NCBI RefSeq assembly: GCF_010994095.1
Contig: NZ_WJYO01000001.1
Location: 806,001-870,000, forward strand
Origin: Mumia xiangluensis
GTDB taxonomy: Bacteria > Actinomycetota > Actinomycetes > Propionibacteriales > Nocardioidaceae
Direction of reading: 5' to 3'
DNA: 64,000 nt
Part shown: positions 38,754 to 59,069 of the stretch, one piece after another
Layout of the letters: each line of letters opens with the position of its first letter
Position numbering within the stretch: position 1 is the stretch's first letter
Notes under the pieces: model-generated
What the model was told of the DNA's origin: nothing
Databases searched by the model: none
The model's input: the letters and a program-made list of their open reading frames with translations, nothing else
Position numbers and translations under genes: made by a program

Positions 38754-38865
38754 TTGTGACCTGGGCGGATGCCCAAGTATTGAATTTTCACGTTTCAAGG
38801 ACGTGGGGCTCAAGTGCTCCGTACGCTCAGGTCACTTCCCTCCGGCTACAGTCTCGGGAGCACAC

Positions 38866-41800
38866 GTGAACAACGGCGTTCGTCCGTTCCGTCCCCTCGC
38901 CCTCCTCCTTTCGTTCGTGCTGGTCGCCAGTGCGCTCGCACTCGCCCCGGGTCTTGCCGATCCGGCCTCTGCGGCACCGACCGCGAGCAAGTGCGCCAAG
39001 TCCGGCCGCTGGCTCGCGCAGTACTACAAGGGCACGTCCTTCAAGGGCAGGCCGGTCGTCACTCGCTGCGAGAAGCGGGTCGCGGCCTCGTACCCGGCGA
39101 GCCGCAAGCCTTTCTCCGTCCGCTGGACCACCACACGCTCGCTGAAGGGCTCGTACGAGCTCCGCGGCCGCGCGGTCGGCAAGGCGACGCTCCGCATCGA
39201 CGGACGCACAGTCGCGACGTCGACGAAGGGCCGGTACGCCGCAGGAGTGCGCAAGCTGCGTAAGGGTAAGCACACCTTCGAGGTCCGCTACGTCAAGAAG
39301 TCCGGAGTCGGATCGGTCGCGGCCGAGTACGTGAAGTCTCCCGACCGTACGCCGCCCGCCGCGCCGACCGCTGTGCGCGCGGTCGCCGGTGACCGCGCCG
39401 TCGCGCTGAGCTGGAAGGCGTCGGCGTCGCTCGACCTGCGGGGCTACCGCGTCTACCGCAACGGCCGCCTCCTCCGCGAGGTCAGCACGCCGCGCTACAC
39501 CGACACCGGTCTGGTGAACGGCACCACGTACGCGTACTCGATCACCTCCGTCGACCACCGCGGCAACGCCTCTCGCCCGAGCGGCGCCGTCCGCGCGGCG
39601 CCGCGCGACCGGATCGCCCCGAAGGCTCCGACCGGCTTCGTCGCGACCGCGGGCGACGGCAAGGTCGACCTGTCGTGGAAGAAGAACACCGAGCCCGACC
39701 TGTCGGGCTATGTGCTGCGCCGTACGTCTCCGGGGACGGCCACGCAGACCTGGAACCTCGCGAAGACCGCCACGACGGCGACGGATCCCACCGCTGTCAA
39801 CGGCACTGCGTACATCTACTCGCTCGTCGCCCGCGATACCTCGGGCAACTCCTCGTCTCCCGCACTGTCGACCGCGACGCCGATCGACAAGCGCGCGCCC
39901 GCGACACCGATCGGGCTCGGTGCCGCACCCGGTGACAGCGAAGTCGCGCTGTCCTGGACGAAGAACACCGAGCCCGACCTCGACGGCTACGTCATCACCC
40001 GGACCCGCGCAGACGGCACGGGCGTGAAGGTGGAGATCGAGGCCGACGCGGACGCCGCGACGCTCACCGACACGAGCGCGGAGAACGACGTCGCCTACCT
40101 CTACACGATCCGTGCGGTCGACGGACGCGGCAACGCCTCGGCTGACTCGACGCCCGTCGCGGCGACGCCGAAGGCGGACGTCCCGGACGATACGACCGCG
40201 CCCGCGGCCCCGACAGGTCTCGCGGCCGAGGCCGGCGACGGCGAGGTCGCGCTGACATGGGACGAGAACGGTGAGCCCGATCTCGACGGCTACACGGTCT
40301 ACCGCAAGAGCGGCGCCGGGAGCTACGTCGCGATCGGCGAGGTCGCCGCCGGCACCACCGCGTACACCGACGAGGCTGCCGAGAACGACACGCTCTACAT
40401 CTATGCGATCGCGGCGTTCGACGAGAGCGGCAACACCTCGGAGTTCAGCAACGAGGCCACCGCCACCCCCACTGACACAACCCCTCCGGCCGCCCCGGCG
40501 AACCCCACCGCGGTCGCTGGTGACGCGCAGGTCGCCCTGACCTGGACCGCGAACACCGAGAGCGACCTCGGCGGCTACCGCGTCTACCGGTCCGAGACTG
40601 ACGACGTGCCGACGACCGGTGACGGCATCGCAGGTGTGGTCCCGACGGCGAGCTTCACCGACGAGGACGTCACCAACGGCACGACGTACTACTACGTCGT
40701 CGTCGCGGTGGACATCCACGGCAACCGGTCAGCTGCTTCGGGCAGCGCCTCGGCCACCCCGACGGACCTGACCCCGCCGGGCGCACCGACCGGCCTCACC
40801 GCCGCGGCCACCGAGGGCCAGGTCGCGCTCGACTGGGCGGACAGCTCCGCGCCCGACCTCGACCACTACGCCGTCTACCGCTCCGGCGGCGCCGCGGCGC
40901 TCGCGGCCGAGGACACCCCGATCGCCGAGGTCGAGGAGTCCGCGTACGTCGACACGACCGTGGAGCCCGGCACCGCGTACGCGTACTGGGTCGTTGCCGT
41001 CGACACGGCCGGCAACCCCTCGCCCGCGTCGGCGACCATCGAGGTCACGACCGTCGAGCCCGATCCGGAGCCGGTTCACGACAAGTTCGTGTTCCAGTCC
41101 GCCGCCGGGCCCGGTGTCGCCGGCTATACCAAGCACACGGGCACCGCCTGGAGCGACGCGACCGGCAACGGTTTCGTCCGCCAGGACAGCCTCACCGCCG
41201 CGACACACGTGCCGCTCGACATGACGACCAACACGCGCTTCCGCACGCGGCCGTTGCCGGTCACCGCGCTGCAGAACAGCCTGGTCCACCTGCAGTACGG
41301 GGACGCCACCCCGCCGCTGACCGCTGGTCAGAACACGGTGCCCGGCGCGTTCGAGCTCGCTGTCCCTGACGGCTGGTACGCCGTCAAGGTCTCCGTCGGC
41401 GATCAGGGCGGGGCCAACGGCTACGACAGCACGCACGTCGTCAACGTCGAGGGCGTCAAGGCGATCGATGCCTTCAAGAGCTCCAGCGCCAAGGAGTACG
41501 AGACGGGCACCAAGACCGTCGAGGTCACCGACGGACGTCTCACGATCGACGCCGTCGGCGGCTCCAACACGAAGCTCAACTACATCGAGGTCGACAGCAC
41601 CGACGAGCCCGAGCCGCCGGTCCTGGTGGACGAGAAGTACTCGTTCACCACCACCGCCGACAGCGCGGTCCCGGCGGGGTGGACGAAGAACAACGGCGCC
41701 GCCTGGACCGACGCCTCGGGCATCGGGTGGGTCTCGCAGGCGAGCCTCGCGACCGCGACGCACGAGCCGCTGGACCTCACCAAGAACACCCGGGTCCGCA

Positions 41801-44800
41801 CCCGGGCGACCGTGACGGCGCTGCAGAACCGCCTCGTCCACATGCAGTACGGCGACGTGCCCAACGGCAACCCCGCCAACGGCAACATCGTCCCCGGCGC
41901 GTTCGAGCGGGCGCTCCCCGACGGCTGGTACTCCGTCTCCGTCAGCGTCGGCGACCAGATGGGCGCAACGGCCTACGACAGCCTGCACACGATCCGTGCC
42001 GAGGGCGTCACCGTCGTCGGTGGGTTCCAGGCGACGGCCGCCAAGGAGTACGAGGTCGCGACCGGCGTCGTCCACGTGACCGACGGACGACTGACCATCG
42101 ACGCCATCGGTGGCACGAACACCAAGATGAACCACCTCTCGATCGTCAGCACCGAGGCGCCGAGCGAGCCTGACGTTCACCGCGCGGTCCGCTTCGCCGA
42201 CGAGGCGAGCGCCCCGCCGGCCGGGTACCTCAAGGACTTCGGAGAGGCGTACGGCCTGCGGAGCGGGAGCGACCAGGGCACCGGACTCGCGTACGGGTGG
42301 ATGCGCCTCGGCACCGTCGACCCGCTGAGCATCGTCGGCAACGGGCGCAACCGTCTCGACCCCGGCTCCGGGTCGGCGCCGGTCGGTACCCCGCAGCTGC
42401 GGGCGGGCACCATCCATATGCAGCTGCCTGAGAATGCGACCCAGGGCGTGAAGATCCCGGCGTACTGGGAGATGGCGGTCCCCAACGGCTCCTACCGTGT
42501 CGAGGTCTCCGTCGGCGACGCCGGAAGCGCGACGGACTCGGTGCACTGGATCAACGTCGAGGACCAGAACGCGATCGCCGGGTTCGTCCCGACGGGCGCC
42601 GCCGGTTCGGAGACCAAGCACGCCACGGCCGTCCGTACGGTCAACGTCGCCGACGGCAAGCTCACGGTCACGCCGACGGGCGGCACCAACACGAAGATCA
42701 ACTGGGTGACCCTCGACAGCGTCGCGGGTTCCTCGGCTCGACCGTCGGTGCGCAAGTCGACGCCCGCCAACCTCGCCGCGGGCGTCTCGCCCACCGGCAG
42801 CGTCGTGAGCGACCTCAACCTCGTCGGGGGAGGCGTGGCTCCGACCTCGCTGCAGGGCGGGACGGTCAGGCTGGTCAAGGTCTCCGACGGCAGCGCAGTC
42901 GCGGGCAGCGCCCTGACCAGCGGCGGCGCGGACACGATCAACTTCTCGCCGACCGCCACGCTCGCGGACAACACCGCGTACCGGCTCGAGATCACCGACG
43001 GCGTGAAGGACGTGGACGGACGTGCGTTCCTCCCGTACTCGATGGTCTTCACCACGGGCGTCGGCACGACGCCGGGTGGTCCGGTCGCGTTCGCCAAGAC
43101 CGACTCGGGCGCCCCGGCCGGCGCGATGTACACGTCGGTCGTCAAGGGACCGGACGGCAGGCTGTACGCCGGCTCGATCAGCGGCGAGATCTACCGGTTC
43201 GACATCCAGGCCGACGGCACCCTCGCCAACCGGCAGACGATCACGTCGGTCAAGACGTACTCGAACAGTGCGGCCAGCGGAGACACCTACAACAAGGGCA
43301 CCCGAACGGTGATCGGGCTCGCGTTCGACCCGGCGTCGACGGCGAGCAACCTGATCCTGTGGATCAGCGACAACGCGCCGTACCTGGGGCAGAGCAACGT
43401 GCCTGACTCCAGCGGCCGTATCGGCAAGCTCACCGGTGCGAACCTGGAGAACTACCAGGCGATCGTCGATGGGCTCCCGCGCTCGGTCAAGGACCACGAG
43501 GCCAACTCGGTCGCGTTCGGCCCCGACGGTGCGCTCTACCTCAACGTCGGGGCGAACAACGCGATGGGTGCACCTGACGGGGCGTGGGCCAACCGTGAAG
43601 AGCGCCTGCTCTCCGCAGCGGTCCTTCGACTGGACCCGAGCAAGCTGCCGGCCGCTGCGCAGCTCCCGGTCAACGTGCGGACCGGTGACGCCGGCTCGTA
43701 CGACCCGTATGCGGCCACCGCTCCGTTGACGGCGTACGCCACCGGCGTCCGCAACGCGTACGACCTCGTGTGGCACACCAACGGGCACCTGTATGTGCCG
43801 ACCAACGGCTCAGCCGCTGGCGGCAACGTCCCCGCGGTCCCTGACACGCTCCCGGCGGTCTGCGCGAAGCGTCCTGACGGCGGCTACACCGGACCGAAGG
43901 TCGCGGCGCAGACCAGCAACCCCGAGGAGACGGACTACGTCTTCGACATCAAGAAGGGGAAGTACTACGGGCACCCGAACCCGTCGCGCTGCGAGTACAT
44001 CCTCAACAACGGCAACCCGACCGCCGCCAAGGATCCGTTCGAGAACTCGAAGTACCCGGTCGGCACCCAGTCGGACCCGAACTACGCGCTCTCCGACGTG
44101 TACGACGCGGGGCTGCACGCCAGCGCGAACGGTGTCATCGAGTACAAGGGCAACGCGTTCGGCGGTGCGCTCAAGGGCAAGCTGCTCTACGTCCGCTACA
44201 GCAGCGGCCGCGACATCGTCTCCTTCGACGTCGCGGCGGACGGCAAGCTGTCGAACCGCAAGGAGGCGCTGAGCGGTACGACCAACCTGCAGCAGCCGCT
44301 CGATCTCACCGAGGACACCGCGACGGGCAACATCTATGTCACGCAGCTGACCGACAACCCGGCCACGACGTCGATCGCCCTGCTCAAGCCGCAGGGCGGC
44401 AACGGCGGTCCGGGTGCCGAGGTCTCGCCGCGGGTGGTCCTCAGCGGGCCGGTCAACGTGACCTCTCCGGCGGCCACGGCGACCGTCACGAACACGGGGG
44501 CGCAGACGCTCACCATCCCGGCAGGTGGGCTCTCGCTCACGGGGGCGGACGCCTCTCAGTTCGCCGTCGCCACTCCGAACACGGCACCGATCACGGTGGC
44601 GCCGGGCGCTTCCACTCAGATCGCGGTCACCTTCCGCCCCACGTCGACCGGGGTGAAGTCGGCGGCCCTGCAGCTCGCGTCAGACGCGGGCGCACGGACG
44701 GTTGCACTCCGTGGTCTCGGTGCGGCGGGCCTGGGCGGTTCGAACGAGCCGTCGCTGCAGCGGATCATGGACACGTTGCAGATCCCGATCAACGTCGGTG

Positions 44801-47133
44801 ACCCGGACCCGTCCAACGCGACGATGCCGTCGACCCAGGGCCCGATCGGCGACGAGGTCGCAGCCCAGCTCTTCCAGAAGGCGGCCTTCGACGCCCCGAT
44901 CACCATGACGCCGCTGGCGGCGTACGGACCGCAGAACAACGATCCCGCGGTACACGTCGGCTGGTACGACGCCGGTCAGGCCGCCAGCCTGCACCCGCAG
45001 TTCTCGATCAAGGCGTCCGAGGCGCAGGGTCTGATGATCAACCCGACAGGCTCGACCACCAACATCGATCCGGGTGAGGAGACCGTCTTCGGGTTCTACT
45101 CCGAGTGGCCGTACTTCAGTGGACGCAAGGCCTACACCGAGGACGCCCTCAACACGTGGGACGCTGCGCTCCCGCACCACCTCCGCGTCTACCCGTACAA
45201 GAACACCGACGGGTCGGTCGAGCCGAACGCATACGTGGTGGCGACCGAAGAGGTGCCCGGTCCGGCGTTCGACAGCCAGGACATCGTGCTCCTCGTCCGC
45301 AACGTGAAGCCGTACGTCCCGGCCGAGGCCGACGGTGCGGTGCTGAAGGCCGTGAACACCGACCCGGTCCCGTTCGAGGACCAGATCGCGTTCAACCGGC
45401 TGCAGACCACCGCGGACGGCAACCAGAAGATGGCCGATACCGGCACCGTACGGATCAGCAACCCCGGGACGGCGGCCCTGCAGGTCACCGGACTCCCGAT
45501 CACCGGCCAGTTCCAGCTGGTGACCCCGCCGTCGCTGCCGTTCACGGTCGCCCCCGGTGCGACGCGGGATCTGACGGTCAGGTTCGTCGCGCAGTCGACG
45601 AAGGTCCACAACGGCACCCTGACCGTGCAGTCCAACGCGGAGACCAATCCGCAACAGGTCATCCAGCTCGGTGGGCTCTGGCAGTCGCAGAGCGAGGGCG
45701 GCCAGGAACCGAACCTGTCGCAGATCGCGAAGGCGTTCGGGATCGGCAGCAACATCCCCAACGGGTTCACGAGCAAGGGTGAGTACTCGCCGATCGGCGA
45801 CGAGGTCCTCTCGCCGTACTGGTCGCGCGTCGACACCACCAAGCCCGTCACCGTGCGGCAGCTCGCCGGGTTCCACACCTACCCGAACGGCGCCTCGCTG
45901 CGGTGGCAGAACAAGACCGGCTCCCTGGGGAATCTGTTCGGGATGGGCGGGCAGTACGCGCAGTCGCTGCTGCCTCGCATCTCGAACACCGTCGGCGCCG
46001 CACCGGCTGCGGGCTCGTTCACTCCGGGCGCCTCTTTCGGGTTCGCCGTCGACGGCGAGCACGGTGATCGCAGCAAGAACAACGAGCAGGTCGACATCGA
46101 GAACGGGTGCGTCGCTCCCTGCGGCCAGCACGTCCGCCTGTGGCCGGTCAAGGACCGGACTGGGACGCTTGTGCCGGGCATGTACGTGCTCTCGATGGAC
46201 TACGCGGGCATCAACTACGACTACCAGGACAACGTCTACCTCGTCACCAACATCCGCCCCGAGGTCATCACGGCGCCGCAGGTCGTCGCGACGCCGGGCA
46301 ACAACAAAGTGACGCTCTCGTGGGGACGCAACCCGTACGACATCGGTGTCGGCTACCGAGTGTGGCGCGGGACGACTCCCGGGTTCACCGTCAACGACGC
46401 GTCGCTGATCAGCGGGCCGACCTCGAGCGCGCCGATCTCGGCGACGACGTTCACCGACAGCACGGTGGTGAACGGAACGACCTACTACTACGTGGTGCGC
46501 GCCGTGTATCAGGGCCTCGGCAACTCAGCCAACGGCACCGCATCGGCGACGCCGACGGCCGCGGCGCAGGTCGTCGACGTGAAGGTCGACTTCGGCAACG
46601 AGGCGGCAACGCTGGCGTCGGGTTACCTGAAGGACTTCGGTCAGGCCTTCGGGGCGCGGACCCGCCTCGACCAGGGCACAGGGCTGACGTACGGGTGGCT
46701 CGGCGAGACCACGCTGCAGCCGCTCGATCTCTCCGTCGGCGGCACGACGGGGCCCGGCAACGGCCGCTGGCGCAAGTCGGTGCAGCCGGACCTCCGACTC
46801 GACACGTTCATGCACATGCAGGCCGACGACGTGCCGAACTTCAACGGGACCCCGATGCCCGGACGATGGGAGCTCGCGGTGCCCAGCGGCACGTACGCCG
46901 TCACCGTCGCCGTGGGTGACCCCAACGTGGGCTCGGATCCAGAGTTCCACACGCTCAACGTGGAGGGCACCAAGGCGATAGACGCGTACGCACCGACGGG
47001 CGCGGCCGGCAGCGCGACGCGGCACAAGACGGCGACCGTCCAGGTCACGGTGAACGACGGCCGCCTCACGCTCGACGCACTCGGCGGCACCAACACGAAG
47101 ATCGACTACGTGGACGTCGCGAGCGTCGGCTGA
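38866..47133 (+). CDS. Giant secreted multidomain protein (PA14-like, FnIII, malectin-like, beta-propeller, anchor-D domains)
   Basis: 2755 residues; GTG at 38866 with GGGAG upstream. Signal peptide to about 38 (ALALAPGLADPASAAP). Order: PA14-like carbohydrate-binding domain (40-155); six fibronectin type III repeats (157-735); three malectin-like domains (about 737-915, 920-1100, 1103-1290); an SbsA-like Ig domain (1295-1410); a sugar-dehydrogenase-type beta-propeller (1415-1845, SVAFGPDGALYLNVGANN); choice-of-anchor D (1850-1955); an uncharacterised domain (1960-2150); a second anchor-D (2155-2270); a second copy of the uncharacterised domain (2280-2470); one more FnIII; a final malectin-like domain (2570-2755). 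No LPXTG or transmembrane anchor. Likely binds and perhaps oxidises extracellular sugars. Its N-terminal 700 residues are paralogous to the protein at 49453. Ends at a strong hairpin. Confidence 0.85.
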   Translation: MNNGVRPFRPLALLLSFVLVASALALAPGLADPASAAPTASKCAKSGRWLAQYYKGTSFKGRPVVTRCEKRVAASYPASRKPFSVRWTTTRSLKGSYELRGRAVGKATLRIDGRTVATSTKGRYAAGVRKLRKGKHTFEVRYVKKSGVGSVAAEYVKSPDRTPPAAPTAVRAVAGDRAVALSWKASASLDLRGYRVYRNGRLLREVSTPRYTDTGLVNGTTYAYSITSVDHRGNASRPSGAVRAAPRDRIAPKAPTGFVATAGDGKVDLSWKKNTEPDLSGYVLRRTSPGTATQTWNLAKTATTATDPTAVNGTAYIYSLVARDTSGNSSSPALSTATPIDKRAPATPIGLGAAPGDSEVALSWTKNTEPDLDGYVITRTRADGTGVKVEIEADADAATLTDTSAENDVAYLYTIRAVDGRGNASADSTPVAATPKADVPDDTTAPAAPTGLAAEAGDGEVALTWDENGEPDLDGYTVYRKSGAGSYVAIGEVAAGTTAYTDEAAENDTLYIYAIAAFDESGNTSEFSNEATATPTDTTPPAAPANPTAVAGDAQVALTWTANTESDLGGYRVYRSETDDVPTTGDGIAGVVPTASFTDEDVTNGTTYYYVVVAVDIHGNRSAASGSASATPTDLTPPGAPTGLTAAATEGQVALDWADSSAPDLDHYAVYRSGGAAALAAEDTPIAEVEESAYVDTTVEPGTAYAYWVVAVDTAGNPSPASATIEVTTVEPDPEPVHDKFVFQSAAGPGVAGYTKHTGTAWSDATGNGFVRQDSLTAATHVPLDMTTNTRFRTRPLPVTALQNSLVHLQYGDATPPLTAGQNTVPGAFELAVPDGWYAVKVSVGDQGGANGYDSTHVVNVEGVKAIDAFKSSSAKEYETGTKTVEVTDGRLTIDAVGGSNTKLNYIEVDSTDEPEPPVLVDEKYSFTTTADSAVPAGWTKNNGAAWTDASGIGWVSQASLATATHEPLDLTKNTRVRTRATVTALQNRLVHMQYGDVPNGNPANGNIVPGAFERALPDGWYSVSVSVGDQMGATAYDSLHTIRAEGVTVVGGFQATAAKEYEVATGVVHVTDGRLTIDAIGGTNTKMNHLSIVSTEAPSEPDVHRAVRFADEASAPPAGYLKDFGEAYGLRSGSDQGTGLAYGWMRLGTVDPLSIVGNGRNRLDPGSGSAPVGTPQLRAGTIHMQLPENATQGVKIPAYWEMAVPNGSYRVEVSVGDAGSATDSVHWINVEDQNAIAGFVPTGAAGSETKHATAVRTVNVADGKLTVTPTGGTNTKINWVTLDSVAGSSARPSVRKSTPANLAAGVSPTGSVVSDLNLVGGGVAPTSLQGGTVRLVKVSDGSAVAGSALTSGGADTINFSPTATLADNTAYRLEITDGVKDVDGRAFLPYSMVFTTGVGTTPGGPVAFAKTDSGAPAGAMYTSVVKGPDGRLYAGSISGEIYRFDIQADGTLANRQTITSVKTYSNSAASGDTYNKGTRTVIGLAFDPASTASNLILWISDNAPYLGQSNVPDSSGRIGKLTGANLENYQAIVDGLPRSVKDHEANSVAFGPDGALYLNVGANNAMGAPDGAWANREERLLSAAVLRLDPSKLPAAAQLPVNVRTGDAGSYDPYAATAPLTAYATGVRNAYDLVWHTNGHLYVPTNGSAAGGNVPAVPDTLPAVCAKRPDGGYTGPKVAAQTSNPEETDYVFDIKKGKYYGHPNPSRCEYILNNGNPTAAKDPFENSKYPVGTQSDPNYALSDVYDAGLHASANGVIEYKGNAFGGALKGKLLYVRYSSGRDIVSFDVAADGKLSNRKEALSGTTNLQQPLDLTEDTATGNIYVTQLTDNPATTSIALLKPQGGNGGPGAEVSPRVVLSGPVNVTSPAATATVTNTGAQTLTIPAGGLSLTGADASQFAVATPNTAPITVAPGASTQIAVTFRPTSTGVKSAALQLASDAGARTVALRGLGAAGLGGSNEPSLQRIMDTLQIPINVGDPDPSNATMPSTQGPIGDEVAAQLFQKAAFDAPITMTPLAAYGPQNNDPAVHVGWYDAGQAASLHPQFSIKASEAQGLMINPTGSTTNIDPGEETVFGFYSEWPYFSGRKAYTEDALNTWDAALPHHLRVYPYKNTDGSVEPNAYVVATEEVPGPAFDSQDIVLLVRNVKPYVPAEADGAVLKAVNTDPVPFEDQIAFNRLQTTADGNQKMADTGTVRISNPGTAALQVTGLPITGQFQLVTPPSLPFTVAPGATRDLTVRFVAQSTKVHNGTLTVQSNAETNPQQVIQLGGLWQSQSEGGQEPNLSQIAKAFGIGSNIPNGFTSKGEYSPIGDEVLSPYWSRVDTTKPVTVRQLAGFHTYPNGASLRWQNKTGSLGNLFGMGGQYAQSLLPRISNTVGAAPAAGSFTPGASFGFAVDGEHGDRSKNNEQVDIENGCVAPCGQHVRLWPVKDRTGTLVPGMYVLSMDYAGINYDYQDNVYLVTNIRPEVITAPQVVATPGNNKVTLSWGRNPYDIGVGYRVWRGTTPGFTVNDASLISGPTSSAPISATTFTDSTVVNGTTYYYVVRAVYQGLGNSANGTASATPTAAAQVVDVKVDFGNEAATLASGYLKDFGQAFGARTRLDQGTGLTYGWLGETTLQPLDLSVGGTTGPGNGRWRKSVQPDLRLDTFMHMQADDVPNFNGTPMPGRWELAVPSGTYAVTVAVGDPNVGSDPEFHTLNVEGTKAIDAYAPTGAAGSATRHKTATVQVTVNDGRLTLDALGGTNTKIDYVDVASVG

Positions 47134-49302: not shown

Positions 49303-49452
49303 AAGGGCGTCTGACCTGCGGTTTTATGTTGATCGGCCCCACAAATCGGGTTCGGCGTGCATCATGAAGATGACGCGTTCGCGAGACACGCGTCACAACG
49401 GCCGTCTACCGTGCCGGTACGACGTTTGCCACTGCAGCTCGGGGGAGACCAC

Positions 49453-52400
49453 GTGATCCACGCTTTCAGGCCTGCCCGGACGGTCGGCGTCGTCGTCGCC
49501 GGCCTGACGGCGAGCCTGCTCGTGCTGGGGCCCGGCGCCGCCGATCCGGCCTCGGCTGCCGCACCGACTGCGGCGTCGTGTGCGAAGTCGGGCCGATGGC
49601 TCGCCCAGTACTACCGGGGCGCCTCGTTCAGCGGCACGCCCGCCATGGTCCGGTGCGAGCGTCGCGTCGCCGCCACGTACGGGGCGAAGCGCGCGCCACT
49701 CGCGGTGCGCTGGAGCACGACCCGCACCCTCGCGGGCTCGTACGAGCTGCGGTCCCGCGCAACCGGCACCGCGCGACTGCGCATCGACGGACGGAGGGTC
49801 GCGACCGCGTCGAAGGGCAAGTACGCCGCGGCGGTCCGCACGCTGCGCAAGGGCAAGCACACGGTCGAGGTCCGTTACGTGAAGAAGGCCGGCGCCGGCG
49901 CCGTCGTTGCCGAGCTGGTGAAGGCCCCGGACCGTACGCCGCCGGCCGCGCCGCGCGGTCTGCGTGCCGTCGCCGCCGACCGGGTCGTCGCCCTCGCGTG
50001 GAGTGCGCCGCCGTCGCTCGACCTGCGCGGCTATCGCGTGTACCGCGACGGGCGCCTGCTGCGCGAGACCGCGACCCGCCGCTTCACCGACACACGACTG
50101 ACCAACGGGGTCGCCGCCTCCTACGCGGTCGTCGCAGTCGACCACCACGGCAACGCCTCGGCGCCGAGCGCGGTCGTAAGCGCCACCCCGAAGGACACGG
50201 TCGCTCCGAAGGCGCCGGACGGCCTCGTCGCCGATGCCGGCGACGGCCACGTGTCGTTGACCTGGCAGCCGAGCACGGAGGCCGATCTCGCCGACCTCGT
50301 CCTGCGTCGTACGGGCGGGGGCGTCGCGAGGTCCTGGACGCTCGACGAGTCCGCGAACTCGTGGGTCGACTCGACCGTCGTCAACGGCACCGTCTACGCG
50401 TACGCGCTCGTCGCGCGCGACACCTCGGGCAACGCCTCGGCGCCCGCGCTGGCCGCCGCTGCCCCGGCGGACGCGTCCGCTCCGGGCGCGCCGACGGGCT
50501 TCGCCGCCGTGGGGAAGGACGGCTGCATCGACCTGACCTGGGCTGCCAACACCGAGAGCGACCTCGCCGGGTACGTCATCACCCGCACGCGCGTCGACGG
50601 GATCGGAGGGGCCGTGGAGTTCGCCCGCGGACCGGCCGCGACGACCTTCGCCGACATCAGCGCGAAGAACGGCGTCGCCTACTCGTACACGATCGTCGCG
50701 CGAGACACGTCGGGCAACACGTCCGCCGGCTCGACCGTCTCCGCGACCGCCCGAGACGTCGTCCCACCTGCGGTGCCCCAGGGGCTGGCGTCGGAGGTGC
50801 GGGGCGGCAACGTCGTGCTTCAGTGGGACGCCGCCACCGACGACACCGCCTCGTACGCGGTCTGGCGGTCCGACGACGGGGGCGACTTCGTCAAGGTCGG
50901 TGTCGCCGTCCGATCGGCACCGACGTACACCGACCACGGCGTCGCCGAGAAGGTCCTCTACCGCTACCGCGTGGTCGCCGTCGACGGTGCGGGCAACGTG
51001 TCCGCCCCCTCGGCGCCCGCCGACGTCACGCTCCCGGACACCGACGCACCGGAGACCCCGCGCGGATTCGCCGCGTCGGCGCACGACGGCCGCGTCGACC
51101 TGGTGTGGAACCCGAACGCCGAGGAAGATCTCGCCGGCTACCGCGTCTTCCGGTCGGCCGCCGGCTCACCGTCCCAGAAGATCGCCGACCTGGACCCGAA
51201 GGCCACGGGCTTCCGCGATGCCACGGTCGTCAACGGCACCACCTACACGTACGCGCTCAGCGCATACGACGACGAGGGCAACGAGTCAGGCCGTACGAGC
51301 GGGGCCACGGCGACGCCCCTCGACCGCGCCGCGCCGGCGGTGCCGACGAGCCTGGAAGCCGTTGCCGAGGACGGCGAGGTCGCGCTGAGCTGGGCCGCCA
51401 ACCCGGAGGCCGACCTCGACGCGTACGTCGTCGTCCGTACGGGTGGAGCCGGTGACCCGACGGAGATCGAGGTCGACGCGGGAGTCAACACGTACACCGA
51501 CACGACCGCCGCCAACGGGACGACGTACGCCTATGTGATCTCCGCTCGCGACCGCGCCGGCAACGTGTCGGCGGCGTCGCTGCCCGTGACCGCGACACCG
51601 GTGGATGCCACCCCGCCCGCGACACCGACGGGACTCACCGCAGTTGCCGGGGACCGCGTCGTCACGCTGCGGTGGGACGCCGGCACCGAGGACGACCTCG
51701 CGACGTACACGATCTACCGCGCCGTGGGCAGCCGTCCGCTCGCGCCGCTGGCCACCCTCAGGCGAGGGGCGACCAGCTATGTGGACACGACCGTCATCAA
51801 CGACACGCTCTACCGGTACGCGATCGCGGCCACCGACGAGACGGCCAACGCCTCCGCCGTCTCCGCGGAGGTGACCGGCGCGCCCACCGACACCACGGCC
51901 CCGGCGGCCCCGGCGGCGCCGACCGTCGTCGCCGGTGACCGAGAGGTCGCGCTCACGTGGACGGCGAGCCCCGAGCCCGACGTGGCCGGCTATCGCGTCT
52001 ACCGGTCGCTGAGCGCCGACGTGCCGACGACCGGCACCGGCATCGCGCGGCTCCTGCCCACCCCGGCGTACACCGATCGCGACGTCGCCAACGGGACGAC
52101 GTACTACTACGCCGTCGTCGCGGTCGACACCCACGGCAACGTCTCCGCCCCGTCTGCCAGCGTCGCCGCCACTCCTGCAGACCAGACCCCGCCTGCAGCG
52201 CCGACGGGCCTCGTCGCGGTCGTCGTCGACGGGTTGGTCGCGCTCGACTGGGCCGACAGCACCGAGCCGGACCTGGATCACTACGCCGTCTACCGATCGG
52301 TCGTCGGCACAGGCGGGCCGCTCGCGGGCGAAGCCCCGCTGGCCGAGGTCGACGAGTCCGCGTACGCCGACGCCACGGTCGCGGCCGGTACCTCGTACGC

Positions 52401-52485
52401 GTACCAGGTCGTCGCCGTCGACGCGTCCGGCAACGCGTCAGCAGCCTCGCTGCCCGTCGAGGCGACCACGCCGCTGCCGAGGTGA
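49453..52485 (+). CDS. Secreted PA14-like/fibronectin type III repeat protein, paralogue of the giant protein
   Basis: 1010 residues; GTG at 49453 with GGGGGAGA upstream. Signal peptide to about 38 (LGPGAADPASAA). A PA14-like domain (CAKSGRWLAQYYRGASFSGT..., 40-155) is followed by nine fibronectin type III repeats of about 93 residues, each with the VxLxW and DTSGNxSxPS patterns. Domain order and wording match the first 735 residues of the 2755-residue protein, so the two genes are paralogues separated only by pckG. No catalytic domain and no wall anchor. Possible adhesin or polysaccharide-binding scaffold. Confidence 0.85.
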   Translation: MIHAFRPARTVGVVVAGLTASLLVLGPGAADPASAAAPTAASCAKSGRWLAQYYRGASFSGTPAMVRCERRVAATYGAKRAPLAVRWSTTRTLAGSYELRSRATGTARLRIDGRRVATASKGKYAAAVRTLRKGKHTVEVRYVKKAGAGAVVAELVKAPDRTPPAAPRGLRAVAADRVVALAWSAPPSLDLRGYRVYRDGRLLRETATRRFTDTRLTNGVAASYAVVAVDHHGNASAPSAVVSATPKDTVAPKAPDGLVADAGDGHVSLTWQPSTEADLADLVLRRTGGGVARSWTLDESANSWVDSTVVNGTVYAYALVARDTSGNASAPALAAAAPADASAPGAPTGFAAVGKDGCIDLTWAANTESDLAGYVITRTRVDGIGGAVEFARGPAATTFADISAKNGVAYSYTIVARDTSGNTSAGSTVSATARDVVPPAVPQGLASEVRGGNVVLQWDAATDDTASYAVWRSDDGGDFVKVGVAVRSAPTYTDHGVAEKVLYRYRVVAVDGAGNVSAPSAPADVTLPDTDAPETPRGFAASAHDGRVDLVWNPNAEEDLAGYRVFRSAAGSPSQKIADLDPKATGFRDATVVNGTTYTYALSAYDDEGNESGRTSGATATPLDRAAPAVPTSLEAVAEDGEVALSWAANPEADLDAYVVVRTGGAGDPTEIEVDAGVNTYTDTTAANGTTYAYVISARDRAGNVSAASLPVTATPVDATPPATPTGLTAVAGDRVVTLRWDAGTEDDLATYTIYRAVGSRPLAPLATLRRGATSYVDTTVINDTLYRYAIAATDETANASAVSAEVTGAPTDTTAPAAPAAPTVVAGDREVALTWTASPEPDVAGYRVYRSLSADVPTTGTGIARLLPTPAYTDRDVANGTTYYYAVVAVDTHGNVSAPSASVAATPADQTPPAAPTGLVAVVVDGLVALDWADSTEPDLDHYAVYRSVVGTGGPLAGEAPLAEVDESAYADATVAAGTSYAYQVVAVDASGNASAASLPVEATTPLPR

Positions 52486-52570: not shown

Positions 52571-54433
52571 TCAGCGCTTCTTGGGCTTGCCGTAGACCAT
52601 CACGGGGAGCATGAAGTCACCGCTGACGACCGTGGACGTCGCCTTGCGGGTCTTCTTCTCGACCGCCTTGCGTCCGCGGCCCATGCTCAGCGACGCGAAG
52701 ACGTCGTTGCCGTGCTCCGCGCGGGACATCGAGGCGATGAGGTCGGGGAGCGAGCTCACGTCGCCCATCGTGTCGTACTCCTCCTCGGCGTAGTCCTCGA
52801 ACATGTCCTCCTCGTCGAACGACCCGTAGGAGCCGCCGCTGACGGACAGGATGCCGATCGGCGACTTGAACTTGCGCCGCGGGACCGCGACGTTCAGGCG
52901 CACCGTCTTGGTCGCGACGCCCGTCGCGCCAGGGCTGCGCTTGAGCGTGGCGCGCAGCTTCAGGGTGCCGCCGCGGCGTACGAGCAGCGGGTCGGAGCCG
53001 ACGCGCGTCCACTGGCCGAACTGCTTCGCCTCGAGCCGCGAGATCGAGTACGCCTGGTAGCCCTCGGAGATCGTCGTGGACTCGGTCGCGCCGAGGATGG
53101 TGACGTCCTCGAAGCCGTTCCACAGGATCGAGTCGATGTCGCCGGCGAACGCCTCGGCGGCGCCGTACGACACGTCGTACCGGTCGGCGCTGATGTCGCT
53201 GCGCCGGTACGTGAGGATCTGGCCGTTCGAACGGCGCAGCTTGATCTCGCGGCTCGTGCGGACCACGCCGCCGAAGATGCCGTCGGTCACCCGGAAGGCG
53301 TCCATCGACGACTGCATGCCGCCGACGGTCGACAGCCAGTCCGGCGAGAGCGCCGTCGTGGAGGAGGTACGGCTGTGCGTGCCGAAGCGGTTCGTCGTAC
53401 GGACGGTCGTCCCCGTCGGGGCCGGGCCGAGGCTGCCGACGATCGCGGTCAGCCGGTCCTGGGTGAAGGAGCCGATCGGGGCGCCGACGTTGGCGATCTT
53501 GAAGGCGCCGTCGAGGTCGCGCTCCACGTAGACGGCGTCGGCACCGTGCAGCGACAGCTTCGTCTTGCCGAGCCAGTCCATCGGGTGGCCGAACGCGAAC
53601 ACCTTCGAACCGCAGACCGCGGTCGCCGTGCCGACGCCGACCAGCGGGAGGGAGCCGTACGAGTAGCCGGCCGCGACGTTCGAGCCGGCCGACACGGCGA
53701 TCGGCTGCGAGCTCGTCCGGCCGCCGCTCGACCCGCTGCGGAACGTGACGTTCTTGAGACCGGCCCGCTTCGCGATCGACTTCGCTGCGGCGGGCGAGAA
53801 CCCGGCAGGGAGGTTGACCGGGGTCGGGAGCCGGCGCATCGAGCCCCCCACTGCCTGCGGAGCGGCGCCGGTGGCGCGCATCGAGGCAGCGACCTTCGCC
53901 GGGATCGCCGCCGCCGCTGCGCCGGCCGCGTACGAGCCGGCCCGGTAGAGGTCGGCGGCTGGGGTCACGCCGGCGTAGTCGCTCGGCGCGTACGACATGC
54001 CGTACGAGACCGAGCCGACGAGGCGGCCGTCGGCGGCGTACACCGGGGAGCCCGACATGCCGGACCAGATGCCGCGGTCGACCGCGCCGGATGCGTCGGT
54101 GATCCGCGACCCCTTCATCTTGAAGACCAGCATGTCGACGCCCGGCGCGATGCCGTCGTCGATCGTGCCGACGAACTCGCCGGTCACGGTGTCGGGTGTC
54201 GTCCCTGCGGAGACGGTCAGGCCTTGGACGGGCGTGCCGGGGGTGGTGCTCGTCGCACGGACGAGCTCTGCCGGCGGGTAGGCGGCCGGGCAGGCGGACC
54301 CGACGGCCGGCGCGGGGGCGGGATCGTCGGCGACGGCGGGGCCGGTCGCGGCGAGCGTCGCTGCGGTGACGGCGAGCGTCGCTGCGGCGGCGATGGTGCG
54401 CGTGCGCCTGCGGGCGTGCGCGGGTGCGTTCAT
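52571..54433 (-). CDS. Secreted SpoIVB-like (S55) serine peptidase-family protein
   Basis: 620 residues, ATG at 54433. Signal peptide (RTIAAAATLAVTAATLAATGPAVA). The S55/SpoIVB-type core is in residues 60-170: GEFVGTIDDGIAPGVDMLVFKMKG and RGIWSGMSGSPVYAADGRLVGSVSYG, where the serine of GMSGSP is the expected nucleophile. Later segments (FGHPMDWLGKTKLSLHGADA) are typical of the long actinobacterial members. No sporulation genes nearby, so a role in envelope protein processing is more likely. Ends with charged, acidic DEEDMFEDYAEEEYD and a basic tail. Confidence 0.78.
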   Translation of the reverse strand: MNAPAHARRRTRTIAAAATLAVTAATLAATGPAVADDPAPAPAVGSACPAAYPPAELVRATSTTPGTPVQGLTVSAGTTPDTVTGEFVGTIDDGIAPGVDMLVFKMKGSRITDASGAVDRGIWSGMSGSPVYAADGRLVGSVSYGMSYAPSDYAGVTPAADLYRAGSYAAGAAAAAIPAKVAASMRATGAAPQAVGGSMRRLPTPVNLPAGFSPAAAKSIAKRAGLKNVTFRSGSSGGRTSSQPIAVSAGSNVAAGYSYGSLPLVGVGTATAVCGSKVFAFGHPMDWLGKTKLSLHGADAVYVERDLDGAFKIANVGAPIGSFTQDRLTAIVGSLGPAPTGTTVRTTNRFGTHSRTSSTTALSPDWLSTVGGMQSSMDAFRVTDGIFGGVVRTSREIKLRRSNGQILTYRRSDISADRYDVSYGAAEAFAGDIDSILWNGFEDVTILGATESTTISEGYQAYSISRLEAKQFGQWTRVGSDPLLVRRGGTLKLRATLKRSPGATGVATKTVRLNVAVPRRKFKSPIGILSVSGGSYGSFDEEDMFEDYAEEEYDTMGDVSSLPDLIASMSRAEHGNDVFASLSMGRGRKAVEKKTRKATSTVVSGDFMLPVMVYGKPKKR

Positions 54434-54597: not shown

Positions 54598-54670
54598 GCG
54601 CTCGTAGCTCAACGGATAGAGCATCTGACTACGGATCAGAAGGTTAGGGGTTCGAATCCCTTCGAGCGCG
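54598..54670 (+). tRNA. tRNA-Arg(ACG)
   Basis: 73-base cloverleaf: acceptor GCGCTCG (54598-54604) with CGAGCGC (54663-54669), discriminator G54670; D-arm GCTC...GAGC; anticodon stem TCTGA/TCAGA with loop CTACGGA, anticodon ACG (decodes CGU/CGC/CGA after A34 editing); T-arm AGGGG-TTCGAAT-CCCTT. CCA is not encoded. A terminator follows nine bases later. Confidence 0.97.
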
Positions 54671-54678
54671 CAGATCGA

Positions 54679-54712
54679 CGAAAGGCCGGACCCGATCGGG
54701 TCCGGCCTTTCG
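54679..54712 (+). terminator. Terminator of tRNA-Arg
   Basis: CGAAAGGCCGGACCC (54679-54693), loop GATC, GGGTCCGGCCTTTCG (54698-54712): perfect 15-bp stem, directly after the tRNA. Confidence 0.85.
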
Positions 54713-54837: not shown

Positions 54838-56676
54838 ATGTCAGATCCGGACAAGGCGATGGACGAAGCCGGCCTCACGAACCCCCAGGTACGTGACTAC
54901 GTCCGCCACTGGGCTGAGTTCACCGGAGCCGATCGGGTCGAGGTCGTCAGCATCGCCGACGACGCGCGCCTCATCGAGGAGGCCCTCGACGCGGGCGAGC
55001 TCGAGCCTGCAGGCACCGGGCGCTACTACTCCCGCAGCTACCACAAGGACACGGCACGCTCCGAGGAGCGCACGATCGTCGCGACCAACGATCCGAAGGA
55101 CAAGGGCGTCTACAACAACTGGCGCCCCGCCTCGGAGATGCGACCGCTGCTCGAGAGCAAGATGCGCGGGGCGCTGGCCGGCAAGACGATGTACGTCGTC
55201 CCCTACCTGATGTCGCCCCCGGGCAACGCGCTCGCGCCCTGGGCCGCAGGCGTCGAGCTGACGGACACCCGTACGGTCGTGCTGCACATGATGCGGATGG
55301 CGCGCGTCGGCGTGGAGTTCGTCAACGACCTCGAGGACCCCGACAGCTTCGTCCGCGCGGTCCACGTCACCGGCGACCTCGAGACCCTCGGTCACGGCAC
55401 CCCTGACGACCAGCGCTACTTCGTGACGGTCGCCGACGAGCGTACGATCCTGCACTTCGGCTCCTCGTACGGCGGCAACGCGCTGCTCGGCAAGATCGCG
55501 CACGGCCTGCGCCAGGGCGCGTACGACGGCTGGGACTCGCGCAAGTTCCTCGCCGAGCAGTACATGCTCATCGGCATCCACGACAAGCAGACCGGCGAGA
55601 CCCACCACATCTGCGGCGGGTTCCCGAGCGCGTCGGGCAAGACCAACCTCGCGATGATGCTGCCGCCGGATGCGCTGGGCGACCGCTACCACGTCTCGTT
55701 CTACGGCGACGACATCGCGTGGCTGTGGGTCGACGAGGCCAGCGGGCGCCTGTACGGCATGAACCCGGAGTACGGCGTCTTCGGTGTCGCGAAGGACACC
55801 AACGAGACCACCAACCCGACGGCGCTGCACTCCGTCGACGAGGGCACCGGCGCGATCTTCACGAACGTCGCCTACAACCCTCAGACGCAGGAGGTCTGGT
55901 GGGAGGGTCGTACGCCCGAGCCGCCCGCCGACGTCACCGGCTGGCTCGACTGGATGGGCGCCCCGATCGCCGACCGCGAGCCGGGCGACGACTCTCCGTG
56001 GGCGCACCCGAACAGCCGCTTCACCACGACGCTGGCGAACGTCCCCAACATCGCGCCCGACTACGACACCCCTTCGGGCGTGCCGATCGACGCGATCATC
56101 TTCGGCGGACGCACCCGTGACCGCGAGCCGCTGATCCGCGCGATCGACGACCTCGCCGAGGGTGTGTACGACGGGCTGACGCTGGGCGCCGAGGCGACGT
56201 TCGCGGCGGAGGGCGTCGAGGGCCAGCTGCGGTACGACCCGATGTCGAACCGTCCGTTCATGGCGTACGGAGAGGGCGACTACGCGCGCCACTACCTCAA
56301 TGTGGTCGGCGCTGCGAAGGAGCAGCCGATCTTCGCCCACGTGAACTGGTTCCAGCGTGACCCGGAGGACGACCACTTCCTGTGGCCCGGATACCGCGAC
56401 AACCTGCGTCCCCTCCTGTGGCTGATCCAGCTCAAGAAGGGTGAGGTCACCGGTCGCCAGACCCCGGTCGGCATCATCCCGACCGAGGAGGAGCTGCTGC
56501 TCGACGGCGTCGACATCACGCCGGAGGACCTCGAGACGATCCTCTCGATCGACGTCGAGCGCTGGCGTCAGGAGATCGGCTTCCGCGAGGAGCACCTCGC
56601 GCAGTTCGACAACATGCCGGAGGAGATCTGGGAGGCGCACCGTCGGGTCGCCGCCGCCCTCGACGCGGAGGCCTGA
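54838..56676 (+). CDS. Second, divergent GTP-type PEP carboxykinase with Cys-to-Ser in the P-loop
   Basis: 612 residues from the ATG at 54838 (MSDPDKAMDEAGL). Clearly of the GTP-PEPCK family: [129 protein letters not shown]. The P-loop reads FPSASGKTNLAM: Ser266 replaces the reactive cysteine (Cys282 in the canonical copy at 47242). Other signature loops also differ (SRFTT for SRFCT). It may run in the opposite direction, use another nucleotide, or be a regulated isoform; none of this can be settled here. Alone after tRNA-Arg. Confidence 0.88.
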   Translation: MSDPDKAMDEAGLTNPQVRDYVRHWAEFTGADRVEVVSIADDARLIEEALDAGELEPAGTGRYYSRSYHKDTARSEERTIVATNDPKDKGVYNNWRPASEMRPLLESKMRGALAGKTMYVVPYLMSPPGNALAPWAAGVELTDTRTVVLHMMRMARVGVEFVNDLEDPDSFVRAVHVTGDLETLGHGTPDDQRYFVTVADERTILHFGSSYGGNALLGKIAHGLRQGAYDGWDSRKFLAEQYMLIGIHDKQTGETHHICGGFPSASGKTNLAMMLPPDALGDRYHVSFYGDDIAWLWVDEASGRLYGMNPEYGVFGVAKDTNETTNPTALHSVDEGTGAIFTNVAYNPQTQEVWWEGRTPEPPADVTGWLDWMGAPIADREPGDDSPWAHPNSRFTTTLANVPNIAPDYDTPSGVPIDAIIFGGRTRDREPLIRAIDDLAEGVYDGLTLGAEATFAAEGVEGQLRYDPMSNRPFMAYGEGDYARHYLNVVGAAKEQPIFAHVNWFQRDPEDDHFLWPGYRDNLRPLLWLIQLKKGEVTGRQTPVGIIPTEEELLLDGVDITPEDLETILSIDVERWRQEIGFREEHLAQFDNMPEEIWEAHRRVAAALDAEA

Positions 56677-56732: not shown

Positions 56733-56820
56733 CGTTTCCCACGCTCCCGTGGCAAATGCCCCCCGTGCCCCGCAAATTTGCGGGGCACGAGGGGCATTTG
56801 CGTGGGGAGCGTGGCAAACG
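56733..56820. repeat. 88-nt imperfect palindrome, probable bidirectional terminator or mobile palindromic element
   Basis: The core 56753-56800 is an inverted repeat with 24-base arms, one mismatch (C56763/A56790) and no loop, centred on AAATTT at 56776/56777; GTGCCCCGCAAA pairs with TTTGCGGGGCAC in the middle. Outer arms 56733-56752 and 56801-56820 still match at 16 of 20 positions. It lies between convergent PEPCK and amidase genes. Confidence 0.85.
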
Positions 56821-56826
56821 CCGGCC

Positions 56827-56871
56827 GGCGCTAGCGCTGCACCGAACGCCGCTCGGCGCTAGCGCCGCACC
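56827..56871. repeat. Two direct copies of a GCGCTAGCGC palindrome
   Basis: GGCGCTAGCGCTGCACC (56827-56843) and GGCGCTAGCGCCGCACC (56855-56871), each containing the 10-bp palindrome GCGCTAGCGC. The second contains the stop codon (CTA, 56859-56861) of the amidase gene, so the gene's end lies within repeat DNA. Confidence 0.75.
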
Positions 56872-59069
56872 TTCCCGGTCGGCGCGGACGGCGCGACCAT
56901 CGGATACAGCGCCTTGTCGTCGACCGACACGACGGCGATGACACGCTTGCCCGCGTCGGACGGCTTCAGCGTGTAGGTGTACGACGTCGCGTCCGCGACC
57001 TTGCGCCCACCGACGAGCCACGTGTACTCGAAGCCGTGCACCTCGCGCGACCACGAGCCGTTGCTGACGGTGAGGGTCGCGCCGACCAACGGCTGGCCGG
57101 TGATCTTCGGCAGCCTCGTCGGGACCACGACACGCTTGCCGGGGTCTGCGAGCGTGACGTCGTCCGCCTTCACGAACACCTGCTTGTGGGCGTACCAGAG
57201 CTGGTAGTACTCGAGCTCGCCCTTCACGTCGGTCCGGTCGTCGGGGATCGACCCGTCGAACGTCTTCGCGTGGTAGTAGTCGGTCTCGACGTCGTCGTCG
57301 CTCACGGCGTACGTCTGCCCGACCCCGAGCGTGTACTCGAGCGGCGAGATCGGCTGCACCGGGATCGCGTACGGCGCGTACGCCTCCGGCTCGGGGTAGG
57401 CGCGCCCGAAGATCGGTGCGGCTGTGGTCGGCGACGTCACCGTCACGGTCTTCGCCGTCGTACGGAGCACGGTCGGGTTCGCGGCCGGGTTCTCGATCCA
57501 GACCAGCGAGCCCGCCCACCACACGCCGAGCCACCCGTCCCGGACCTCGGCGACGACGAGCTTGTGCCCGGACTGGATGCGGGCGCTGATGTCGCTCGCG
57601 TAGGTCGTCCCGTCGGCGCCGCTCGGCTTCCACCCCGGGTCCTTCGCGAGCGGGGCGTCGACCGACGGCGCCTGGCGGGCGACGATGTAGTTCGTGCCCT
57701 GCCCGACCACGCAGTCACCCGAGCCGGGCGACGCCTGCTGGCATCCGGTGACGGGGTTGACGTTGTCGGCGTAGCCGGGGCGCACCTCGACGACGTCGCC
57801 GGCCTTCACCGTGGCGGTGTTCTTCGCGGACTGCCCGATCGGTGCTCCGATCAGGTCGAAGTAGTGCTCCCAGTCCCAGTACGGTCCCGGGTCCCAGTGC
57901 ACGTTCTTGGTGGCGCCGGCCGTGATGCCGGGGACCTGGTCGTGACCGATGATGTGAGCGCGGTCCAGCGGGATGTCGTGCTCCTCGGCGAGGTGGCGGA
58001 CGAGCTTCGCGGACTGCTCGTACATCGCCTCGGTGAACCAACCTGCCGAACCGGCCCAGCCTTCGTGCTCGATCCCGATCGAGTGCGCGTTGACGTACCA
58101 GTTGCCGGCGTGCCAGCCGACGTCCTTGGGATCGAGGTGGTTGGCGATGTGGCCGTCGGACGACCGGATCGTGTAGTTCCACGCGAGGTACGTCGGGTCC
58201 ATGACGAGGCGGATCGTGGGGTCGTACGCGGTCTCGGTGTCGTGGATGACGATGTACTTGATCTTCGGTCCGCCGGGCCCGGTGCGGTCGGCCTTGTCGT
58301 GGTTGCCGTAGTTGCCCGTGCTGTCGGGGTCCGCCGGGTCGCCCTTCGCGTAGCCGGCGGGGAGCCACTCGCACCCGAGGTCGGTCGGGCAGTCGGTCTC
58401 GGGGTCGCTGGCGGTGTCGTCGGGTACGTCGACGGTCGGGTCGGCCTCGAGGGTGACCGCCTCGCCCCCGGACGTGACCCGCGACTGCCCGCTGTGCAGC
58501 GTCGTCAGGACCTGGCGAGTGAAGGTCGCCGCAGCACCGAACTGCGCGATGGCGCCCGTCCAGCTCTCGGCCGGTGCGTCGGCGTCGAGGTCGGGTGCGT
58601 ACGACGCGGTGAGCGCCGCGGCTGCGCAGACGTTGGCGCGGTCGTCCGCGCGTACGGTGGTGGCGTCGAGCCCGGTGAGATCGGCAGCCCGCTCGAGCTG
58701 GCTCGTGGTGGATCGGTCGGAGCGGGTCGAAGTCCCCTTGCCGGCGGCGTCGGGCACGGCGGTGGTCGTGGACCGGAGATTGAACATCCCGTAGCCGCCG
58801 TCGTTGCTGGCGCGACCGTCGTGGCCCTCCCAGCGGGACTGCATGTACGAGACTGCCTTGAGCACGTCGGCGGGCACGTCTGCCGCACGGGCAGCGGCGT
58901 CGAACGCCGAGTCGAGCGTCGGGGCCGCGAGGACTGCGCTGCAGTCGACGGCCGGTGGGTCAGTGGGAGGTGTGGCCGAGGCCCACGAGGCGAGCGCCGT
59001 CGGGAGAGCGGTCAGCAGCAGTGCCGCTGTGCCCCCGGCGAGGCCGACTCGTACGAGTGAGGATCGCAC
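56859..59069 (-). CDS. Secreted N-acetylmuramoyl-L-alanine amidase (Amidase_2) with N-terminal lysozyme-like region
   Basis: 736 residues; GTG at 59069 eight bases after GGAAGGAG. Signal peptide (MRSSLVRVGLAGGTAALLLT). Residues 45-180: helical region with ADVLKAVSYMQSRWEGHDGR and GGYGMFNLR, reminiscent of transglycosylase-like domains. Residues 260-420: Amidase_2, with zinc-site IVIHDTETAYD, GWHAGNWYVNAHSIGIEHEG, HIIGHDQVPG and HWDPGPYWDW. C-terminal beta-rich part with Ig-like repeats (PKITGQPLVGATLTVSNGSW). Cleaves the MurNAc-L-Ala bond of peptidoglycan; acts outside the cell in wall turnover or against other bacteria. Confidence 0.9.
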   Translation of the reverse strand: MRSSLVRVGLAGGTAALLLTALPTALASWASATPPTDPPAVDCSAVLAAPTLDSAFDAAARAADVPADVLKAVSYMQSRWEGHDGRASNDGGYGMFNLRSTTTAVPDAAGKGTSTRSDRSTTSQLERAADLTGLDATTVRADDRANVCAAAALTASYAPDLDADAPAESWTGAIAQFGAAATFTRQVLTTLHSGQSRVTSGGEAVTLEADPTVDVPDDTASDPETDCPTDLGCEWLPAGYAKGDPADPDSTGNYGNHDKADRTGPGGPKIKYIVIHDTETAYDPTIRLVMDPTYLAWNYTIRSSDGHIANHLDPKDVGWHAGNWYVNAHSIGIEHEGWAGSAGWFTEAMYEQSAKLVRHLAEEHDIPLDRAHIIGHDQVPGITAGATKNVHWDPGPYWDWEHYFDLIGAPIGQSAKNTATVKAGDVVEVRPGYADNVNPVTGCQQASPGSGDCVVGQGTNYIVARQAPSVDAPLAKDPGWKPSGADGTTYASDISARIQSGHKLVVAEVRDGWLGVWWAGSLVWIENPAANPTVLRTTAKTVTVTSPTTAAPIFGRAYPEPEAYAPYAIPVQPISPLEYTLGVGQTYAVSDDDVETDYYHAKTFDGSIPDDRTDVKGELEYYQLWYAHKQVFVKADDVTLADPGKRVVVPTRLPKITGQPLVGATLTVSNGSWSREVHGFEYTWLVGGRKVADATSYTYTLKPSDAGKRVIAVVSVDDKALYPMVAPSAPTGKVRR

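Follow-up and report, generated by a model that had tools for sequence, protein, structure and literature searches.

A second GTP-type PEPCK homologue in the Mumia window

The window analysed here, a stretch of 64,000 nucleotides from Mumia xiangluensis (contig NZ_WJYO01000001.1, positions 806,001 to 870,000), contains two genes for homologues of GTP-type PEPCK. The protein under study, P0001 (54838..56676, + strand, 612 amino acids), was delimited by its open reading frame from ATG to TGA, by family profiles and by alignment. Its start was placed at the ATG at 54838, not at the GTG at 54712 that opens the longer reading frame, as most of the relatives listed align from residue 1. The comparison copy, P0002 (47242..49092, - strand, 616 amino acids), is a canonical GTP-PEPCK. 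The two genes are encoded on opposite strands, separated by 5.7 kb, and their products are 39% identical. An earlier note on this DNA had described a second GTP-PEPCK with the P-loop FPSASGK beside a canonical copy with FPSACGK, and both open reading frames and both motifs are indeed present. Against the NCBIfam PEPCK (GTP) equivalog NF003253, with a cut-off of 504 bits, P0001 scored 614.8 bits and P0002 990.6 bits. Both proteins also matched the two Pfam PEPCK domains, PF00821 and PF17297, P0001 with 397.8 and 183.5 bits against a cut-off of 23.8, and they are the only two GTP-PEPCK matches in the whole Mumia genome. Proteins resembling P0001 (at least 68% identical to it in the matches listed) are referred to below as B, canonical enzymes (about 37-43% identical to P0001) as A, and six far-diverged rows, hand-picked among the matches of roughly 30% identity to P0001, as D.

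Directly upstream of P0001, a tRNA scan identified a tRNA-Arg(acg) gene (54598..54671, + strand), which is also present in 19 of the 32 B loci scanned. Downstream, a terminator-like or REP-like inverted repeat of 44 bases (56733-56820, no spacer, 89% complementary) separates the gene from a convergent gene for an N-acetylmuramoyl-L-alanine amidase (Amidase_2; 56859-59069, - strand, 736 amino acids). The canonical PEPCK gene is flanked by genes for large fibronectin type III proteins (38803-47133 and 49357-52485; 2776 and 1042 amino acids), whose N-terminal stretches look alike by eye. Between these genes and P0001, a 620 amino acid protein (52571-54433, - strand) has only a sub-threshold trypsin-like match, and open reading frames of the same cluster occur in five other B loci.

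Active-site substitutions in B

Residues were compared across 119 B rows, 65 A rows and 6 D rows, with identical rows and matches spanning fewer than 480 amino acids left out and B defined for this purpose by a score above 600 bits to P0001. The B rows include 118 distinct sequences, 97 of which remain at 95% identity, and the A rows cover Actinomycetota, Alphaproteobacteria and Clostridia. Rat cytosolic PCK1 served as the reference for residue roles (PMC7948413, PMC4631375), and rat numbering is used for the positions compared. In the rat enzyme, Lys244 coordinates the oxaloacetate-bound manganese and is described as essential for coordinating PEPCK manganese; acetylation of this residue abolishes Mn2+ coordination and leaves about 1% of activity (PMC7948413). 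In the Mycobacterium tuberculosis enzyme Pck, metal site 1 is predicted to consist of Asp295, a lysine and His249, and metal site 2 of Thr276 and Asp295 (PMC4370629). That source prints the site 1 lysine as Lys249, the same number as the histidine; by offset it would be Lys229, so the printed number is probably a misprint.

The earlier note had mentioned further signature changes in P0001 beside the P-loop serine, and these proved to be the main point. The Mn2+ ligand Lys244 is replaced by Ile220 (55495..55497, + strand), with isoleucine in 119/119 B rows and lysine in 65/65 A and 6/6 D rows. The second Mn2+ ligand, His264, present in all A and D rows, is replaced by Gln241 (55558..55560, + strand), with glutamine in 119/119 B rows. 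The assignment of this column hinges on the placement of a one-residue insertion. A register scan preferred an insertion in the hairpin turn, scoring Gln241 at 36.7 and the less favoured Tyr242 at 31.1; it scored 33/65 A and 14/82 B segments, and its pattern missed 37/119 B and 6/6 D rows. Two structure models point weakly to the alternative register, with tyrosine or phenylalanine in place of His264, although the model of the canonical copy is of low quality (pLDDT 59.9). In either register of the alignment, His264 is absent from B.

The remaining Mn2+ ligand, Asp311, is kept as part of Asp291-Asp292 of P0001 (rat Asp310-Asp311; 55708..55713, + strand), as are most of the other active-site residues examined. 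Invariant in 119/119 B rows are the substrate residues Arg87, Tyr235, Asn403 and Arg405, the nucleotide and metal site 2 residues Lys290 and Thr291 (both in the P-loop) and Asp310, and in addition Lys243, Ser286, Asp311, Phe333, Arg436, Trp516, Phe517 and Asn533. Phe525 is found in 101/119 rows, the remaining 18 having tyrosine. Exceptions to this conservation are the guanine-pocket Phe530, which is tyrosine in 116/119 B rows, Arg437, which is threonine in 117/119, and Cys245, which is alanine in all. By alignment to these references, two of the three site 1 ligands are gone from B and site 2 is kept.

B also carries residues of its own. His206 (position 230; 55453..55455, + strand), a candidate new metal ligand, is histidine in all B rows and serine in all A and D rows. 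A stretch at 55492..55515 (+ strand) contains Lys219, His222 and Gln226 and corresponds to helices 216-221 and 224-234 in the B model. His222 (position 246) is histidine in 119/119 B rows and in 1/6 D rows and tyrosine, phenylalanine or leucine in A; Gln226 is present in 116/119 B rows, with isoleucine or threonine in A. Many further positions are fixed differently between A and B, in a comparison that took in open reading frames of at least 550 amino acids; the genome samples of the surveys reported here partly overlap.

The P-loop FPSASGKT (residues 262-269; 55621..55644, + strand) has Ser266 (codon 55633-55635) in place of the reactive cysteine, rat Cys288. The proposal that this serine defines a clade was borne out: it occurs in 119/119 B rows and in none of the 65 canonical or six far-diverged rows, all of which have cysteine, and the rows that carry it form one side of a tree branch. 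Serine in ordinary single-copy PEPCKs had been named as the observation that would speak against its significance; genomes with one PEPCK do carry it, though within the set of rows compared it is confined to the B clade. The emphasis placed on the cysteine as the key change did not hold up. In M. tuberculosis Pck, neither direction of the reaction is reported to require the corresponding Cys273; mutating it lowers the gluconeogenic reaction and is said to raise catalytic efficiency (PMC5279734), so the focus on the cysteine is misplaced. The replacements of Lys244 by isoleucine and of His264 by glutamine are the changes expected to have the most effect, outweighing that of cysteine by serine.

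Fold and comparison with known PEPCKs

The model of B (pLDDT 82.1, pTM 0.86) has the PEPCK fold and superposes on GTP-PEPCK structures, best on 9e32 with a Z score of 42.2 and 579 residues aligned at 2.2 A. With the GTP-PEPCKs of M. tuberculosis, Corynebacterium glutamicum and Polaromonas (EC 4.1.1.32), B shares the full-length fold, both Pfam domains and the P-loop, as well as the substrate-binding arginine, asparagine and tyrosine residues and the guanine-pocket Trp516 and Phe517 of the bacterial type. B differs from the bacterial enzymes in the three replacements found in every row (Lys244 to isoleucine, His264 to glutamine, Cys288 to serine), in its new invariant His206 and His222 and in the frequent Phe530 to tyrosine change, and it is 32-36% identical to them in the structural alignments listed. 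The P-loop FPSASGK is also found in the M. tuberculosis Pck variant C273S (PDB 5i67), which is by its entry title an engineered single-residue mutant and which, unlike B, keeps the lysine and histidine metal ligands in alignment. Of the rat PCK1 residues Lys244, His264, Asp311 and Cys288, B keeps Asp311 only. PPi-PEPCK, which has no InterPro family and is described as unrelated to the ATP- and GTP-dependent enzymes (PMC8100219), is a different protein from B, which is homologous to GTP-PEPCK.

Phylogeny, distribution and gene neighbourhood of B

A tree of 28 B, 36 A and 6 D rows (70 in all), built by a quick method without bootstrap and rooted on group D, places B on one side of a single branch with an SH-aLRT support of 100 and a stem of 3.2 changes per column. 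The A rows do not form one group in this tree, with L136 and L137, both clostridial, diverging close to its base, and two rows (L165 and L178) sit on long end branches. As judged from this tree, B is an old, deep and separate clade of GTP-PEPCK and not a recent paralogue; the support and length of the branch rule out a recent duplication of the canonical copy. Inside the B subtree the bacterial families are intermixed, with modest support on many forks, and this mixing suggests transfer between lineages.

The closest named relatives of P0001 among the matches listed (best 80 of 338) are from Mumia quercus (92%) and Mumia sp. zg.B17 (89%). A survey sampled 394 genomes of the class and scored at most the three best candidates in each; by our own count, B was found in 41 genomes under seven family codes, one of these genomes (G168) having a partial match. 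One genome of another class (G619) carries a B protein with 71% identity to P0001. The named hosts include Mumia, Nocardioides, Aeromicrobium, Janibacter, Knoellia, Phycicoccus, Blastococcus and Modestobacter. Among 59 matched plasmid records, none reached at least 60% identity. We found no paper on this clade among the matches listed, several lists being capped, in a search that covered the open-access literature, so we do not claim the clade to be unreported.

In Mumia, where six of six genomes searched (including that of the window) carry both genes, mean dN/dS calculated with our own Nei-Gojobori script was 0.167 for B and 0.148 for A (15 pairs each). The B gene is under purifying selection similar to that on A. 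Together with the invariant catalytic residues, this value rules out a pseudogene or a gene under relaxed constraint.

The occurrence of two PEPCK genes within 8 kb, previously regarded as unusual, carries little weight as a peculiarity of this genome, given the six Mumia genomes with both copies and the presence of both in the fetched stretch at 28 of the 80 named B loci (best 80 of 338), many of which end early at contig ends. In 27 of these 28, A lies downstream of B on the same strand, and in nine of the 27 the open frame of A (stop to stop) starts at most 200 bases past B; in the window and at another Mumia locus (L004), A is upstream of B on the other strand. Apart from the canonical gene, no gene recurred strongly next to B across these 80 loci and the window, with few exceptions. 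In Nocardioides, GGDEF/EAL-like and glycosyltransferase-like genes, named by sequence reading with no family search, lie between B and A. A divergent ArsR-like regulator, likewise named by our own reading with no family search, is found at most 1.5 kb upstream of B at 11 loci (L003, L004, L010, L020, L023, L032, L039, L052, L054, L055, L058). An acyl-CoA-dehydrogenase-like gene (cluster 2; name from sequence reading) is found upstream at eight loci. The neighbourhood of B and A looks less like a pathway cluster than like a common location.

B without a canonical copy in Aeromicrobium

B was found in 47 of 49 Aeromicrobium genomes, some of which are incomplete, and in 30 of the 49 it was found without A. 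These genomes share the genus code g20, which was assigned to Aeromicrobium on the grounds that the B positions in G754 and further g20 genomes match those at named Aeromicrobium loci. Both were found in 17, with 15 long A matches and two A fragments; one of the long matches (G764, C1:2660820-2662442) has a single in-frame TGA. The two genomes with A-like matches in which B was not found are a contaminated genome and one that is 71% complete. By our own count, 23 of the 37 Aeromicrobium genomes with a completeness of 90% or more and a contamination of 5% or less have B without A. Named B-only genomes are those of A. massiliense, A. phragmitis, A. camelliae and Aeromicrobium sp. Root495, and four other named Aeromicrobium have both. 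One genome (G789) has two B copies (C7:174085-175899 and C3:331718-333517; 76% and 74% identical to P0001) and no canonical copy.

Neither PPDK nor PEP synthase was over the cut-off in any of the 12 B-only Aeromicrobium genomes examined. Across 66 genomes from three classes, one or the other was over the cut-off in 10/25 B-only genomes, 10/18 with A and B, and 22/23 with A only, so that both were missing in 23/43 B carriers compared to 1/23 A-only genomes. This contrast comes mainly from two genera (Aeromicrobium and Mumia) and is not phylogenetically independent; within genus code g7 alone, both enzymes were missing in 4/13 B carriers and 1/6 A-only genomes. One genome counted as lacking both (G448) has a PEP-synthase-like piece of 334 bits, below the cut-off. 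ATP-PEPCK was not found in any of 13 genomes tested, four of them Aeromicrobium. The GlpX fructose bisphosphatase was detected in 14 of the 15 B-only genomes without PPDK and PEP synthase, including all 12 from Aeromicrobium, and also in 8/8 comparison genomes; its presence is not special to B carriers. Isocitrate lyase was over the cut-off in two of those 15 genomes and in none of the eight comparison genomes. For A. massiliense, API 20NE tests are reported as positive for maltose and gluconate assimilation and otherwise negative (PMC3569385).

Interpretation of the B clade

As read from its sequence, B is a genuine, well-conserved GTP-PEPCK variant with a changed metal site, and more than a change of cysteine alone. 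The role that we consider most likely, with evenly balanced confidence, is that of a functional carboxykinase that forms PEP and whose metal site has been rebuilt. The data show the substitutions, the separate clade, its conservation and its distribution. Its activity, metal site and direction are what we infer from the conservation of the other catalytic positions, the purifying selection, the PEPCK fold and the B-only Aeromicrobium genomes with neither PPDK nor PEP synthase over the cut-off. B would still interconvert oxaloacetate and PEP with a guanine nucleotide, relying on the retained Asp311, the residues that bind oxaloacetate and PEP, the P-loop lysine and threonine, and the aspartate of the nucleotide metal. 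The substrate-side metal at site M1 would be held differently, with isoleucine and glutamine in place of Lys244 and His264. Candidates for a rebuilt site, or for binding a different metal, are His206, His222, Gln226, Gln241 and perhaps the retained Lys219. Mumia and many Nocardioides would use B in addition to a canonical copy, and most Aeromicrobium would have B as their sole PEP-forming carboxykinase. Speaking against a working enzyme are the changes of Phe530 to tyrosine and Arg437 to threonine, the narrow substrate range of A. massiliense and the scarcity of isocitrate lyase. In addition, the residual activity of acetylated rat PCK1 means that loss of the lysine in B could mean loss of the reaction.

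The broader proposition is more tentative, and we hold it with somewhat less than balanced confidence: that an entire PEPCK subfamily catalyses the reaction without two of the three canonical Mn2+ ligands, by means of relocated ligands, another metal or no substrate-side metal at all, and is the sole PEP-forming gluconeogenic enzyme in most Aeromicrobium species.

It is rather unlikely, though more probable than the other rival readings, that B has been neofunctionalised, retaining the pockets for GTP and for PEP or oxaloacetate but, without the canonical M1 metal, using GTP in some other reaction whose substrate is a different keto-acid or phosphorylated compound. The long stem, the many positions fixed differently between A and B and the two M1 ligands missing from all B rows would fit such a change of function. 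Invariance of the residues that bind oxaloacetate and PEP argues against it, as does the position of B as the only PEPCK homologue found in 30/49 Aeromicrobium genomes, of which the 12 examined have GlpX yet neither PPDK nor PEP synthase over the cut-off. A new pathway would also sit uneasily with the lack of strongly recurring pathway genes adjoining B at the loci compared.

We consider it improbable that B is a GTP-PEPCK of the ordinary kind, altered chiefly in having a redox-insensitive P-loop, the metal site being effectively normal because, for example, the retained Lys219 replaces Lys244. This explanation would account for the serine in every B row and agrees with the reported tolerance of M. 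tuberculosis Pck to mutation of its cysteine (PMC5279734), but Lys244 and His264 are gone from all B rows and present in all 71 others, and B is a deep separate clade. Least probable of all is that B is a pseudoenzyme without catalytic activity, which would bind nucleotide or PEP and thereby regulate metabolism or the canonical enzyme. In favour of this reading, two metal ligands are lost, acetylation of Lys244 is reported nearly to abolish rat PCK1 activity (PMC7948413) and B lies near A at 28/80 loci (best 80 of 338). Against it, the search found no A in 30 of 47 B-carrying Aeromicrobium genomes, and the P-loop, Asp310/311 and substrate residues of B are invariant.

The equivalog model, whose cut-off the window copy exceeds, would call B proteins PEPCK (GTP) without evidence of that reaction. 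The naming of B proteins bears on metabolic modelling of Aeromicrobium, Nocardioides, Janibacter, Blastococcus and their relatives. A natural clade without Lys244 and His264 whose active site is otherwise mostly intact, and which is the only PEPCK homologue found in many genomes, would allow a test of how much of the metal site is indispensable for the PEPCK reaction.
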